The notes beneath the pieces are model-generated. The model had not been told where the DNA came from. It worked only from the letters and a program-made list of their open reading frames with translations, and did not search any database. DNA of 64,000 nucleotides from Corynebacterium pollutisoli. GTDB lineage: Bacteria > Actinomycetota > Actinomycetes > Mycobacteriales > Mycobacteriaceae. Of the stretch, positions 59,294 through 64,000 are shown piece after piece. The position numbers and the translations under genes are program-made. Position 1 is the stretch's first letter. The number at the start of each line of letters is the position of its first letter. The stretch spans positions 124,001 to 188,000 of the forward strand of contig NZ_FXAR01000005.1 of the NCBI RefSeq assembly GCF_900177745.1, read 5' to 3'.

Positions 59294-60625
59294 TCAGCCG
59301 ACGACGATCTGCCCGCGCTGCCCCTTCTCGGCGTCGGTCATGACGTGGTTGACGAAGGTGTAGGTGCCCGGTTCGTCGAAGGTGACCTCGACGAACCCGC
59401 CCTGGGCCGGGAGCAGCGGCAGCACCTGGGCCCCGGTGTCGGTGGCGTCGCGGATGAGGTGGCGTCCCTCGCTGAAGACGGCGTCGAAGATCTCCCCGAC
59501 GAGGTGGAAGCTCACCGGGTTGTCGGGGCCGACGTCGAGGACCCAGAAGCGGACGGTGTCGCCGACCGCGGCCCGCAGCGGTGCGTCGACGTACTGGTGC
59601 GGGTAGCCGTTGAAGGCGGTGTGGTCGTAGGGCCCGTCGCTGACGCGCGCGGCGTCCGCCCCGGTGTCCCGCTCCCCCAGCCACACCGCGGAGGCGACGA
59701 GCGAGTACTCGGCGTCGACGGGCGGCAGGTCCGGTGGGTCGATGATGACGGCCCCGAACATGCCGTTCGCGATGTGCAGGCTCATCGGCGCCGTGGCGCA
59801 GTGGTACATCCAGATTCCCGAGCGTCGGGCGACGAACTCGTAGACGAGGGACTCCCCCGGGTTGATGGTCCGCATCGGGGCGTCGGGACTGACCTCCCCG
59901 GCGTGGAAGTCGACGGAGTGCCCCATGGTGCCGTCGTTGTGCAGGGTGAGGCGGAAGGTGTCCCCGACCTTCCCCCGCAGGGTGGGTCCGGGGAGCTGCC
60001 CGTCGAAGAGCCACACCACCTGCTCGTGGCCGGGGGCGACCTCGCGGATCTCCTCGGTGACGCTCCACTCCAGCTCGTGGACGGTGCCCTCCGGGGCCGG
60101 CGGCAGCGCGGCGTCGTGGACCTCGGCGGTCGCCGGGGTCGCCGGGGCCGCCGTGTCAGCCGTGTCAGCCGCGCCGTGCTGGTGGGCGTCGACCACGACG
60201 ACGGTGAGGATCATGCCCATCGCCTTGTGCCCGGCCACGGTGCACCACCCCTCGGTGTCGGTGCTGACCACCCCGGCGTCGAAGGTGAGGGAGTCGCCGG
60301 GGTCGACGAGCGCGGCCCGGCGGTCGTTGATCTGCAGGTCGTGACGCATGTCGTCGTCGTTGTGCAGCTCGATGATGAGGTGGGTGCCGGCGGGGACCTC
60401 GATGACGTCCGGGTGGTAGGCCATGTCCCGCATGCTCACCTCGACGGTGCGGGTGTCCCCGCCCGCCGCGACGGGGGTCTCCTCCGGGGCGGTCGTACCC
60501 AGGGTGAGGCCGAGGACGACGGCCGCGGCCAGGGCCAGGCCGACGAGGATCCACGAGGCCCAGCCGGCCGACGGCTGGGAGGGGGCCGACGCAGCCGGGG
60601 TGGAGGGGCCGAGGGGCAGGGTCAT
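59294..60625 (-). CDS. Copper nitrite reductase-like multicopper oxidase with fused N-terminal cupredoxin
   Basis: A 443-residue membrane-anchored copper protein. An N-terminal helix (about residues 24-44) is followed by an extra cupredoxin domain with type 1 ligands in MRHDLQ and CTVAGHKAMGM. The two-domain NirK-like core then has GHSVDFH (with the catalytic Asp), YHCATAPMSLHIANGMFG (type 1 and 2 ligands), SFHLVG and TFVNHVMTDAEKG. This ligand set fits reduction of nitrite to nitric oxide. It is the third gene of an operon with two NnrS/oxidase-like membrane proteins, overlapping the previous stop by ATGA. A general copper oxidase is the alternative. Confidence 0.82.
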   Translation of the reverse strand: MTLPLGPSTPAASAPSQPSAGWASWILVGLALAAAVVLGLTLGTTAPEETPVAAGGDTRTVEVSMRDMAYHPDVIEVPAGTHLIIELHNDDDMRHDLQINDRRAALVDPGDSLTFDAGVVSTDTEGWCTVAGHKAMGMILTVVVVDAHQHGAADTADTAAPATPATAEVHDAALPPAPEGTVHELEWSVTEEIREVAPGHEQVVWLFDGQLPGPTLRGKVGDTFRLTLHNDGTMGHSVDFHAGEVSPDAPMRTINPGESLVYEFVARRSGIWMYHCATAPMSLHIANGMFGAVIIDPPDLPPVDAEYSLVASAVWLGERDTGADAARVSDGPYDHTAFNGYPHQYVDAPLRAAVGDTVRFWVLDVGPDNPVSFHLVGEIFDAVFSEGRHLIRDATDTGAQVLPLLPAQGGFVEVTFDEPGTYTFVNHVMTDAEKGQRGQIVVG

Positions 60626-61812
60626 GAGGGGTCCTTCCGGTACTGGAGGGTGACGGCGAGCGCCAGCGCGAGGACGTGGCCGAGCAGGCCGAGCGCCAGC
60701 AGGATGATCCCGGCGGGCCCGGGGGCCACGAGGGTGAGCACGCCGCCGAGGTTGATGAGGACCCACCGGGCCGGCCCGCCGCGGTCGGCCCGCTCCCGGG
60801 CGGCGATGACCTTCCCCGGTCCGCCGCCGACGAGGATGGGCAGCAGGTGCAGGAGCACGGAGGTGACCAGCTGCAGCAGGCCCGCGCCGAGGAGGGCCGG
60901 GACGAGCAGGCGGATGCCCTCCCGCGGGTCGACCTCACGGGCCAGCAGGACGGCGTCGGTGGTCGCCAGCGCCACCATCCACACCGTGCCCGCGGCGACG
61001 CCGAGCCCGGCGGTGCGCCAGCGGGTGCCGGGCAGGACCCCGGCGAGGACCGGCTGCACGAGCATGACAGCGGCGGCGACGGTGACCAGGAGGGGGAGGG
61101 CGGCGGACGGGGCGTCGATAAGCAGGGCGCCCACGGCCAGGACGAGGCCCGCGGCGTGGACCACCAGGGCGCGGGTGCAGCGGGCCCGCGCGGTGGCGGA
61201 GATGCGCGCGCCGGTGAGGGTGGGCAGCAGGCTGATGATGGTGCCGAGCACCGTCAGCCACGTGAAGCCCCACACCGTGGCGCGGGAGTGGGCGGCGATG
61301 AGGTCGTCGTAGGAGCCGAGGCCGCGGCCCGCCGCCCAGGCGAGCCCGACAGCCAGGACGAGGAACGCGGCGGCCACCAGGTAGAACGGCACGGTCACCA
61401 CGACGGAGCCGGCCAGGGACCGGCGCAGCCGCGACCACAGGGCCACCCCGTGCCACCCGAGTACGACCAGCACGAGGGCGGCGCCGAGATCGGCGGGCGC
61501 GGACCAGCCCGGTCCGGCGTCCCCGACGAGCAGCAGGAGGACGGCCCCCTGGAGGAGCGCCACGCGCCCGGCCACGGGGAGGTGGGAGGCGGCCGGGGTG
61601 CGGGTGAGGGCCTCGGTGAAGTGGGTGGAGTAGACGAGGACGGCGGTGGTCAGCGCGCCGAGGGTGAAGGGGTGGACGACGGCCCACCACGACGCCCCGG
61701 CGAGGAAGAACCCGAGGCCGGCGAGCATCCACGCGCCGATGACCACCGCGGCCGTGGTGTGCCAGCGGGCGCGGGAGCGTAGGGAGACGTCCGACAGTGC
61801 GAGGGTGCTCAT
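60622..61812 (-). CDS. Polytopic membrane protein resembling heme-copper oxidase/NnrS proteins
   Basis: A 396-residue protein with 11-12 membrane helices. Histidines sit within or at the ends of helices: VVHPFTLG and YSTHFTEAL in helix 2, GWHGV in helix 4, AAHSRATVWGFTWLT in helix 6, VVHAAGL in helix 7 and LLHLLPIL in helix 10. This is reminiscent of heme-binding oxidase-like or NnrS-like folds. I cannot prove heme ligation. Similar actinobacterial proteins carry uninformative names. It is coupled by ATGA overlaps to the genes on both sides, linking it firmly to the copper nitrite reductase-like enzyme. Confidence 0.7.
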   Translation of the reverse strand: MSTLALSDVSLRSRARWHTTAAVVIGAWMLAGLGFFLAGASWWAVVHPFTLGALTTAVLVYSTHFTEALTRTPAASHLPVAGRVALLQGAVLLLLVGDAGPGWSAPADLGAALVLVVLGWHGVALWSRLRRSLAGSVVVTVPFYLVAAAFLVLAVGLAWAAGRGLGSYDDLIAAHSRATVWGFTWLTVLGTIISLLPTLTGARISATARARCTRALVVHAAGLVLAVGALLIDAPSAALPLLVTVAAAVMLVQPVLAGVLPGTRWRTAGLGVAAGTVWMVALATTDAVLLAREVDPREGIRLLVPALLGAGLLQLVTSVLLHLLPILVGGGPGKVIAARERADRGGPARWVLINLGGVLTLVAPGPAGIILLALGLLGHVLALALAVTLQYRKDPS

Positions 61813-62906
61813 CGGCGGGCCCTCCTCCGGGAGGCGCGCACGCTGAGAGTGACGCCGGTGAGAAGAAACGTCAGCACGGCGAGGACGTTGATGACGCCGC
61901 CGGCCTGCCACAGGGGGACGGCCTCCCGGGCGTCGCCGAGCAGGCGCAGCGCCAGCCCGCCGTGGAGGAGCGCCACGGGCACGTACATCACGGGGTGGTA
62001 CGGCAACGGGCGGCGGATGACGGCGGTGAGGATGATCGGGGCGTGCGCGAAGATCATGGAGATGACGAAACCGAGGAAGACGGCGTGGACGGCGGCGTCG
62101 TAGAGGAATCCGGTGGTGGTCCGGGGGAACGCCACCCACAGCAGGCCCGCCAGCCCGAGCCACAGGTAGCCGGCCAGCATGCACACCGCGCTGAAGCGGG
62201 GCAGGCCCTGCGCGCGGACGAGGCGGCGGGCGACGTCGACGCGGGCGGTGACCACGGCGACGGCCACCAGCAGCAGGCCCATGAGGGGGTGGCCCACCTC
62301 GGGGGCCGCGACGAAGAGGATCCCGGCGGCCGCGAGCGCCAGCACGAGCCCGGTGATGAGCGGCTCGGGATTCCCGGCCGTCACGGGGATGCGGGCCAGC
62401 TCAAGTCGTTCGCCGATGATGGTGGCCACGACGAAGACGACGGCGGGCGGCATGGCGGCGGCGAACCCGCCGTCGCCGAAGCCCCACAGGAGGGTGGCGC
62501 TGACGGCGCCGATGACGCCGGCCGCCTGGGCGATGACCGCGGCGGTCGCCTGGCGCCGGTGGACGGTGGCGTACACGAGGCCGAGCAGCAGGAAGCTGCC
62601 GGTGAACAGCAGGGCGGGCACCGCCACGGGGAGTCCGGCGAGGAGGGTGACGACACCGAGGGCGCTGCACACCGGGCCCGCCCACGCCCACCGGGTGCGC
62701 ACCGCGACGGTGCGTTCCAGGCCGATGGCCCCGCCGACGAAGCCGAAGATCATGAGCGGCCCGTGGTCGGCGGCCAGCGTCGCTGCGCGGGTGCCGCCGA
62801 GGTACCCGAGCAGGGCGAGCGCGGCGGTCAGGCCGGTGAGGACCGAGGCTCCGGCGAAGGCCAGGAACACGAATCGGTGCCACACCACCGGCTGATCTTT
62901 TTTCAC
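61809..62906 (-). CDS. NnrS-like polytopic membrane protein
   Basis: A protein of about 365 residues with 11-12 helices. It shows NnrS-like features: ADHGPLMIFGFVGGAIGLER in the first third, and AVHAVFLGFVISMIFAHAPIIL plus YHPVMYVPVALLHGGL in the last third. NnrS is a heme- and copper-binding membrane protein that protects against nitric oxide in denitrifiers. The GTG start chosen gives MKKDQPVVWHRF and follows a TACGAT box closely, so the mRNA is probably leaderless. It is the first gene of the three-gene operon and is divergent from the DUF2249 gene across a short palindromic region. Confidence 0.72.
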   Translation of the reverse strand: MKKDQPVVWHRFVFLAFAGASVLTGLTAALALLGYLGGTRAATLAADHGPLMIFGFVGGAIGLERTVAVRTRWAWAGPVCSALGVVTLLAGLPVAVPALLFTGSFLLLGLVYATVHRRQATAAVIAQAAGVIGAVSATLLWGFGDGGFAAAMPPAVVFVVATIIGERLELARIPVTAGNPEPLITGLVLALAAAGILFVAAPEVGHPLMGLLLVAVAVVTARVDVARRLVRAQGLPRFSAVCMLAGYLWLGLAGLLWVAFPRTTTGFLYDAAVHAVFLGFVISMIFAHAPIILTAVIRRPLPYHPVMYVPVALLHGGLALRLLGDAREAVPLWQAGGVINVLAVLTFLLTGVTLSVRASRRRARR

Positions 62907-62910
62907 GGAC

Positions 62911-62926
62911 TTAATCGTACTAAATT
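62911..62926. promoter_or_regulatory. A/T-rich near-palindrome covering both divergent promoters of the NnrS/DUF2249 pair
   Basis: TTAATCGTACTAAATT is centred on GTAC. It contains the candidate -10 of the leftward operon (TACGAT on the minus strand) and of the rightward gene (TAAATT). The A/T content stands out sharply from the surroundings. A nitrosative-stress or oxygen regulator such as an Rrf2 or Crp/Fnr protein is a plausible binder, but no consensus match is claimed. Confidence 0.45.
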
Positions 62927-62962
62927 GGGGAGGCAGACAGAACACCACCGAAAGGACCCGCC

Positions 62963-63226
62963 ATGGAGATCAACCTCCCCCTCACCCCCGACGACTCCAC
63001 CCCGGAACCCACCCTCATCGCCGCGGCCATCCCGCACGCCATCCGCCACGGCGCCATCCACGGCGCCCTGGGTACCCGCGCCGTCGGCGAATCCATGGTG
63101 CTCGTCGCCCCGCACAACCCGACCCCGCTGCTCACGGAGATCGAGCGCCGGGAGGAGGATTTCGACATCGAGTACCTCACCGAGGGCCCCGACACCTGGC
63201 GCCTCCGCTTCACCCGCACCGCCTGA
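62963..63226 (+). CDS. DUF2249 domain protein
   Basis: A single 87-residue DUF2249 domain, with AIRHGAIHGALGTRAVGESMVLVAPHNPTPLL and the C-terminal DFDIEYLTEGPDTWRLRFTR segment described here only in part. DUF2249 proteins commonly lie beside nitric oxide and denitrification genes and are thought to bind metal through conserved histidines (here RHG and APHNP). GAAAGGA precedes the ATG. The divergent placement from the NnrS-like operon supports a common regulon. Confidence 0.85.
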   Translation: MEINLPLTPDDSTPEPTLIAAAIPHAIRHGAIHGALGTRAVGESMVLVAPHNPTPLLTEIERREEDFDIEYLTEGPDTWRLRFTRTA

Positions 63227-63243
63227 CCCTAGGATGGGCAGGT

Positions 63244-64000
63244 ATGGGCCATGAACCGCGCAACCTGCTCATCCAGGGCGAGAACCTCGAGGTCCTGCGC
63301 AGCCTGGCCGCCACCCACGCCGGGCAGGTACGCCTCATCTACATCGACCCGCCGTACAACACCGGCAGCGGCGACTACCTCTACGCCGACGCCATGCCCC
63401 GCGAGCAGTGGCTCCGGTTCATGGTCGAGCGGCTGGAGGCCGCGCGTCCCCTGCTTATCGACGACGCCGTCATCGCCATCCAGTGCTCCTTCCACCAGTC
63501 CGCCCACCTCGAGGTCACCCTCGACGGGCTCGACTGGCTGCACAAGGTCATGGTCTTCCACGTGCTCGTCCGCCACCCGGGCCGGGCCCTCACCGCCGAC
63601 AAGCAGTTCAACGACGTCATGGAGCAGATCCTCATCTACTCCCCCGACCCGCACTTCCGCATGCCCCGCCGCGAGCGCGAGCGCGACCTGAGCGACTACC
63701 GCTGGGAGGTCGAGATCCACGGGCCCGGCACCCCGCGCCTGCTCGGCGACCGCCGGTGCCACGTGTACGCGCCGGAGGAGTGGCGAAAGGTGGAGGTCGC
63801 CCCCGGGGAGGGCACCTTCCGCACCCACTCCGTCCGGGGCAGCCTGCGCGAGAAGAACTCCTCCGGACGTTTCTGGGTGGCCCACCTCGAGCCCCTCGAC
63901 CTCCCGCCGCTGTCCCTCATCCGGGTGCCCGACATCGGCGACGACGGCCTCGGCCACCGCTTCTTCCACTCCCCCAGGGCGGGCAACCGCAACGGCTCCT
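63244..64000 (+). CDS. DNA adenine methyltransferase, DPPY type (type III Mod-like), truncated by the window
   Basis: An open frame of 252 codons running off the right edge without a stop. Motif IV IYIDPPYNTG at residues 32-41 is that of beta-class N6-adenine methyltransferases. It follows NLLIQGENLEVLRSL, the usual Mod opening, and precedes EQWLRFMVERLEAARPLLIDD. The stretch after this, IAIQCSFHQSAHLEVTL, departs from the usual SIDDNE-type motif. The SAM-binding motif I would lie beyond the edge in this class. A restriction or helicase partner, if any, is outside the window. It starts 17 bases after the DUF2249 gene on the same strand, though the two are probably unrelated. Confidence 0.8.
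   Translation, partial: MGHEPRNLLIQGENLEVLRSLAATHAGQVRLIYIDPPYNTGSGDYLYADAMPREQWLRFMVERLEAARPLLIDDAVIAIQCSFHQSAHLEVTLDGLDWLHKVMVFHVLVRHPGRALTADKQFNDVMEQILIYSPDPHFRMPRRERERDLSDYRWEVEIHGPGTPRLLGDRRCHVYAPEEWRKVEVAPGEGTFRTHSVRGSLREKNSSGRFWVAHLEPLDLPPLSLIRVPDIGDDGLGHRFFHSPRAGNRNGS

Follow-up and report, generated by a model that had tools for sequence, protein, structure and literature searches.

A probable solitary DNA methyltransferase derived from a Type III Mod protein in one clade of the genus Corynebacterium

We analyzed a stretch of 64,000 nucleotides from Corynebacterium pollutisoli, in the following termed the window (G000:C11:124001-188000 of a genome of 2.54 Mb), the right-hand edge of which carries a gene for what is probably a solitary, site-specific DNA amino-methyltransferase that stems from a Type III Mod protein, has lost the Res partner as well as both terminal domains of its ancestor, was gained once and has been inherited vertically since. 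Judged from its sequence, this enzyme appears to be domesticated, probably active and directed toward one fixed target. A literature search, many results of which were off-topic, listed no publication dealing with this gene or with an orphan methyltransferase of Type III origin in Corynebacterium.

The methyltransferase frame starts with its first ATG at position 63244 and not, as had been given in the initial annotation, at 63234; in agreement with that annotation it stays open through base 64000, the last one of the window. The gene ends 389 bases past this edge (L005:4389, i.e., G000:C11:188389) and is complete with 381 codons (Table 1). PF01555 matches residues 29-343 (E=3.7e-33, 115.8 bits vs. 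a cut-off of 26.7), and motif IV precedes motif I (DYHLGSGTT, residues 315-323, with its G-S-G invariant among the orthologs), which places the protein among the DNA amino-methyltransferases of the beta class. Based on the PF01555 score and on 12 further near-full-length orthologs (66-86% identity), a chance frame can be dismissed. The GC content of the gene (0.70) equals that of the whole window. The hexamer TAGGAT located 8 nt before the ATG suggests a leaderless start, and a TANNNT element is present 3-9 nt ahead of an in-frame start ATG in 11 of the 13 orthologs, which are related and not independent, vs. 20 of the 1429 ATGs in the window. The only other place in the same genome that matches PF01555 is a 309-aa frame with reversed motif order (G000:C8:95849-96268; L030:1129-2058), in which a motif I-like part comes first and SPPY follows later; it represents a second, different methyltransferase.

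Table 1. Positions of the methyltransferase gene, its elements and its left-hand neighbors in the window.
Feature	Position	Strand	Basis or remark
Cupredoxin/copper nitrite reductase-like protein	59294..60766	-	TIGR02376, 145 bits, below the cut-off of 296
Protein without Pfam family, part of the surrounding block	61812..62948	-	Membrane protein by eye
DUF2249 gene, directly upstream	62963..63226	+	Pfam; methyltransferase between DUF2249 and mog in 9/13 genomes
TAGGAT, -10-like hexamer, 8 nt before ATG	63230..63235	+	TANNNT in 11/13 orthologs
Solitary (probable) beta-class DNA methyltransferase, codons 1-252 of 381	63244..64000	+	PF01555, frame, motifs
Catalytic motif IV DPPY, residues 35-38	63346..63357	+	Invariant in 13/13 orthologs
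IAIQCSFHQSAHLEV segment, residues 77-91	63472..63516	+	QxSFHQ/E at this position in the three nearest Mods of Type III
Putative target-recognition region, start (~residues 105-284)	63556..64000	+	Bounds placed by us between motif blocks

The resemblance to Type III Mod proteins that had been noted at the outset is borne out by PF01555 and by 47-48% identity to such proteins, and it also holds true that a SIDDNE-like segment is absent and that IAIQCSFHQSAHLEV occurs in its place. This segment had been considered unusual, an assessment that we do not share, as complete Type III Mods carry MQISFHEYPYL, IQISFHQYPYL or IQTSFHQYPYL at the same position. With these counterparts in the three nearest Mods, the segment constitutes a mark of the subfamily and no oddity. 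The idea that it characterizes a new family was rejected, since it is common to complete Type III Mods.

Among the matches listed, the nearest relatives outside the genus are plasmid-borne Mods of Lactobacillales, which share the 47-48% identity over residues 7-373 (96-97% of the protein). The plasmid search listed 12 matches, one further record had its best place at 60-80% identity, and closer relatives may occur in unsampled genomes. In a phylogenetic tree of the methyltransferases, comprising 12 of 80 viral loci and six of 14 comparison proteins and leaving out the near-copies L106 and L109, the Lactobacillales Mods form the sister group of the Corynebacterium proteins (support 100/98); 31 of the 80 viral loci were taken into A2. 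The Mods of Carnobacterium maltaromaticum pL21581-4, Pediococcus pentosaceus pPC892-2 and Ligilactobacillus salivarius pMP118 have the recognition region and the QxSFHQ/E segment in common with the window protein. In contrast to it, each of them is followed by a Res-type gene, located directly after the Mod in C. maltaromaticum and P. pentosaceus and after an array of three Mods in L. salivarius. Furthermore, these Mods exhibit a longer N-terminus and about 100 additional C-terminal residues; compared with Mods of 659-669 aa, the window protein lacks approximately 170 N-terminal and 100 C-terminal residues (L040 was left out of the comparison with full-length Mods). The N-terminal Mod domain PF12564 is absent from the window protein (P0001) at E<=1 and present in the two full Mods scanned, including that of C. 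maltaromaticum, the one scanned among the three nearest, while the L. salivarius Mod is preceded by a separate gene for about 180 aa. In PADLOC the window protein matches MTase_III best (225.5 bits). Together with the identity to Mods encoded upstream of Res, this identifies the catalytic core and the recognition region of a Type III Mod. On pMP118 of L. salivarius UCC118 (L088:5457-11412), three Mod-like genes lie in a row before one helicase/Res gene, each Mod being annotated as a piece of about 180 aa plus a separate piece of 470-500 aa; this may be a Type III system in which the Mods are split and more than one recognition subunit is available.

Within Corynebacterium, the N-terminal domain appears to have been lost to different degrees, with the reservation that the start used by each ortholog is deduced from sequence. 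The orthologs end soon after a W-x-GGG-like motif (L043 is cut by the end of its contig). When read from an in-frame ATG, the basal ortholog L053 comprises 495 aa, scores 24.0 bits with PF12564 (cut-off 25) and has an N-terminus that aligns, with internal deletions, to a full Type III Mod of Corynebacterium (31% identity, E 5e-16). Orthologs L046-L052 possess starts giving 419-433 aa, and the remnant aligns to the same Corynebacterium Mods (L046); PF12564 was found in none of the five members of this group that were among the eight of 13 orthologs scanned. The proteins of the window subclade, with 381 aa in the form from the window, begin at the motif block itself. A TAGNNT hexamer precedes the long start in all seven of L046-L052 and the short start in four of the five members of the window subclade.

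On the left, the methyltransferase gene is flanked by DUF2249, two Pfam-less proteins that resemble membrane proteins by eye, and the cupredoxin/nitrite reductase-like protein; for the Pfam-less protein listed in Table 1, NnrS-like serves as a working label. Further to the left follow genes that we take to be mobA, moaC, moeA, moaA and acsA on the basis of sequence reading and the known gene order in Corynebacterium. The copper protein combines a cupredoxin with a copper nitrite reductase-like domain and lies beside the two Pfam-less proteins, and the copper-protein block between mobA and mog is found again in several genomes of Corynebacterium but not in all of them. To the right, where frames were read up to narG, the methyltransferase is followed by mog (reverse strand, PF00994), narK (which stays below the cut-off of TIGR00886) and narG (which exceeds that of TIGR01580). 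Six listed frames were scanned beyond narG, and Pfam indicated the delta and gamma subunits of nitrate reductase, a solute-binding protein, an ABC transporter and an HTH regulator; one scanned frame without family occupies the expected place of narH and overlaps frame L005:9818-11872. PADLOC gave weak scores for the ABC transporter (best mad3, 6.4e-22) and the HTH regulator and none for five further proteins scanned. No restriction genes were found in the flanks read. The initial annotation had considered it possible that a restriction or phage-defence locus opens to the right and had proposed to look there for Res/helicase or nuclease genes. Extension of the sequence revealed none of these; mog, narK and narG of a nitrate reductase region lie there instead. 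A lone gene without motif I had been named as the outcome that would speak against this annotation. The gene is indeed lone, but motif I is present in the completed gene, so that the objection does not apply.

The neighbors of the methyltransferase being DUF2249 and mog, there is no Res gene next to it, and searches were extended to whole genomes. The Type III nuclease domain PF19778 was found in none of the 13 genomes with the methyltransferase, compared with four of five Mod-bearing control genomes (G118, G008, G179 and G274; beside the Mod only in G118); neither G004, which contains a full-length Mod-like frame, nor 14 named control genomes yielded a match. Since PF19778 was not seen in two plasmid Res proteins either, it is a poor probe for this subfamily. 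The Res protein of C. maltaromaticum found no match at E<=1e-5 in 14 genomes, among which there was no positive control; the same query detects the Res proteins of four other plasmids (38-47% identity, E below 1e-140). Four complete plasmid Res queries matched the PF19778 loci of Corynebacterium weakly (best 6.6e-7) and gave nothing better than E 0.32 at all 16 ResIII-like places of the C. pollutisoli genome. As plasmid Res proteins are detectable in this manner and none emerged at the 16 places, it is very unlikely that this genome encodes a matching type of Res, although a distant one may be present. The case for absence of Res across all methyltransferase-bearing genomes is strong, not absolute, and genome-wide searches for Type III Res found none.

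With regard to distribution, a survey of 242 Corynebacterium genomes at E<=1e-20 returned 19 matches, 13 of which, including that of C. pollutisoli, are near full length (66-100% identity) while the other six are partial or distant. No ortholog was found outside the genus, neither in a class-wide sample at E<=1e-50 (one of 394 genomes, C. pollutisoli itself) nor in a family-wide sample at E<=1e-20 (two of 301, i.e., C. pollutisoli and one distant Mod), and a contig scan, which reaches close relatives only, yielded four loci, all from Corynebacterium. In a tree of acsA sequences derived for the 30 best of 238 matching genomes, the 13 genomes fall into one clade of 14 (support 100/99). The sole member without the methyltransferase, G003, is nested inside this clade, so that one gain and one loss suffice. 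The methyltransferase tree exhibits the same subclades, and L053 (from G069) is basal in both. From these trees we infer one acquisition by the clade ancestor, followed by vertical inheritance as a solitary gene. In G003, PF19778 matches a 269-aa frame (G003:C5:65261-65584) that is perhaps a Res fragment.

Ten of the 13 orthologs reside within a nar/nir locus, nine of them between DUF2249 and mog, whereas L053 has the copper protein on one side and mog on the other, DUF2249 being absent. In the remaining three (L043, L044 and L045), the gene is located directly behind acsA, the AMP-ligase gene. Baits for moa, the nir block, mog and nar found no match in these three stretches, and narG was not detected at E<=1e-200 in the corresponding genomes G198, G169 and G076, the last of which is a single contig with 100% completeness, the first two being drafts with 90 and 92%. 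L044 and L045 have lost the blocks on either side, and the methyltransferase lies there between acsA and a PF13531 solute-binding protein with an HTH regulator, followed by thrB and hom; the contig of L043 ends at the methyltransferase gene and cuts it. The stop codon TAG of acsA doubles as the beginning of the -10-like TAGGAT in L044 and L045, while in L043 the acsA stop lies one base ahead of the ATG and the hexamer has disappeared, meaning that two kinds of junction exist. L043, moreover, groups with the narG-bearing genome of the window in the acsA tree (84/91) as well as in the gene tree (93/85), neither node being among the starred ones. Given this grouping and the differing junctions, the nar locus was likely, though not provably, lost on two separate occasions.

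NarG is encoded in 83 of the 242 genomes, and the ten highest identities (86-100%) belong exactly to the ten genomes that contain both genes, while the next genome, G122 (84%), is devoid of the methyltransferase. Of 21 narG-positive, methyltransferase-free genomes that were read, eight (G105, G068, G060, G137, G127, G055, G025 and G205) possess part or all of a nir-like block at the same place. Arrival of the methyltransferase together with this block is thus unsupported. In G060, the aligned DUF2249 and mog pieces are only about 20 bp apart, while in G068 a different 325-aa frame, ion channel-like by eye, occupies the slot (L189:2637-3614); this slot may take in genes. In G134, narG (G134:C1:1350901-1354632) exhibits one in-frame TAG in an otherwise full-length match and is possibly a pseudogene or affected by a sequencing error.

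The gene is conserved in its clade under purifying selection (13 of 14 genomes): dN/dS according to Nei-Gojobori amounts to 0.03-0.43 and stays below 1 in nine of nine pairs, the value of 0.43 stemming from the deepest pair and all values being rough because GC3 is about 0.96. Internal stops were found in none of the 13 ortholog frames, L043 being cut by its contig end. Mean pairwise identity among the 13 orthologs is 0.75 for the recognition region vs. 0.74 for the catalytic parts. Where Type III families switch their specificity, it is the recognition region that varies. The same is described for EcoPI and EcoP15I in PMC8259958. With a recognition region as conserved as the catalytic parts, one fixed target would be the natural reading of the sequences. 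Activity is not assured, as certain Type III Mods depend on their Res for methylation, according to the same paper (PMC8259958), and the window protein lacks regions of its relatives. The methylated base would most likely be N6-adenine; N4-cytosine would also be possible, as N4-methylcytosine formation by Type III Mods with DPPY is mentioned there as well (PMC8259958).

A structure model derived from an alignment of 44 sequences reached a pLDDT of 91 and a pTM of 0.82, compared with a pLDDT of 66 for an earlier, shallower alignment. Its best match among solved structures (VIA) is the EcoP15I Mod (4zcf; Z 25.6, rmsd 2.4 A, 235 aligned residues), with model residues 3-381 placed on chain residues 91-514, followed by CcrM (6pbd; Z 24.8), the 6k0w Mod (24.6) and M.BceJIV (24.5). 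According to the model, the fold is that of a beta-class methyltransferase; with Z values tied or nearly so, it does not discriminate a Mod from CcrM. By sequence, the solved relatives align mainly at the conserved ends. The parts of EcoP15I Mod before and after residues 91-514 have no counterpart in the window model, and no Res was found here. CcrM acts without a partner and has been passed on vertically within a clade. The fold is also common to CcrM and other solitary beta-class adenine methyltransferases, but the CcrM equivalog NF050803 scores only 70.2 bits with the window protein vs. a cut-off of 830, and, unlike CcrM, the enzyme occurs, within the genomes sampled, in a single clade of one genus only.

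Several other explanations have to be weighed against a solitary enzyme of Type III descent, and two of them, local regulation and protection from invading systems, themselves presuppose a solitary enzyme that is active and are special cases of it; the respective confidences therefore overlap. We regard it as very improbable that the gene provides the modification function for a locus of restriction or phage defence continuing to the right. Mod ancestry, closest relatives in Mod-Res loci and the weak PADLOC scores further right would fit, but Pfam explains the latter as transporter and regulator, and mog and the nitrate reductase genes, the nar/nir gene order in ten of 13 genomes and the negative PF19778 (0/13) and Res (0/14 genomes, 16 ResIII-like places) searches contradict it. 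It is improbable as well that the gene is an inert remnant, in the course of being lost, of a restriction-modification system that no longer functions. The loss of Res and two Mod domains and the absence from G003 would be in accordance with decay, which is however at odds with 13 frames free of internal stops, invariant DPPY and G-S-G residues, dN/dS below 1 in all pairs and survival of the gene in L044 and L045 after the blocks on both sides had vanished.

Recruitment as a local regulator that tunes nitrate/nitrite respiration by methylating sites in nar/nir promoters appears unlikely, albeit less so than decay. Genomic place alone suggests such a local role, given ten of 13 copies inside the nar/nir locus and the coincidence with the ten top NarG identities, and a precedent exists in M.PaeTBCFII, an orphan methyltransferase of Pseudomonas aeruginosa with a Type I-like bipartite motif that affects nitric oxide reductase genes, as stated in PMC9600465; there an effect on nitrogen-oxide genes was reported, whereas in our case it is the location that points in this direction. 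On the other hand, the three genomes without a narG match that keep the gene argue against nar/nir as its sole role, nir-like blocks occur without the methyltransferase in other species, and an own -10-like element argues against simple co-regulation. About equally unlikely is retention as a shield that protects the chromosome when a Type III system with identical specificity invades on plasmids or phages; while relatives of the recognition region do occur in complete plasmid-borne systems, these are found in Lactobacillales, and the four full-length Mod-like frames of Corynebacterium that were compared match either weakly (L023 and L028, with 30% over the length) or at the conserved ends only (L025 and L027). 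An epigenetic or housekeeping role is favored by vertical retention, by the conservation of the recognition region and by the fact that the gene outlasted the nar losses.

For the solitary enzyme that we prefer, a Mod would have lost its Res partner, its C-terminal domain and, step by step, its N-terminal domain, and a single acquisition by the ancestor of the Corynebacterium clade would have been followed by vertical inheritance. The protein would bind AdoMet at motif I and, with its DPPY site, methylate one base on one strand of a target that is short and asymmetric and is specified by the undiversified recognition region. After replication, the mark would be missing from one daughter duplex until the enzyme returns. 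Such a transiently absent mark could serve as an epigenetic signal, not as self-labelling against a nuclease, and without Res it could not serve restriction.

The common view is that restriction systems give rise to orphan methyltransferases when their nuclease is lost; to our knowledge, intermediate stages of this process are seldom at hand. The clade described here seems to hold a graded series that leads from a Mod with a decayed N-terminal domain to the bare core with a constant recognition region and is also marked by survival of flanking deletions. Tentatively, and with more doubt than for solitary status as such, we propose that a Mod was captured in a respiration locus, whittled down to core and recognition region, and now acts in this clade as an epigenetic regulator with a housekeeping function, directed at nitrate/nitric-oxide respiration or at a wider set of genes. 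If this is true, intermediate forms of 495, about 420 and about 380 aa survive in living species, and these would bear on the question whether the core of a Type III Mod works alone, and on what.
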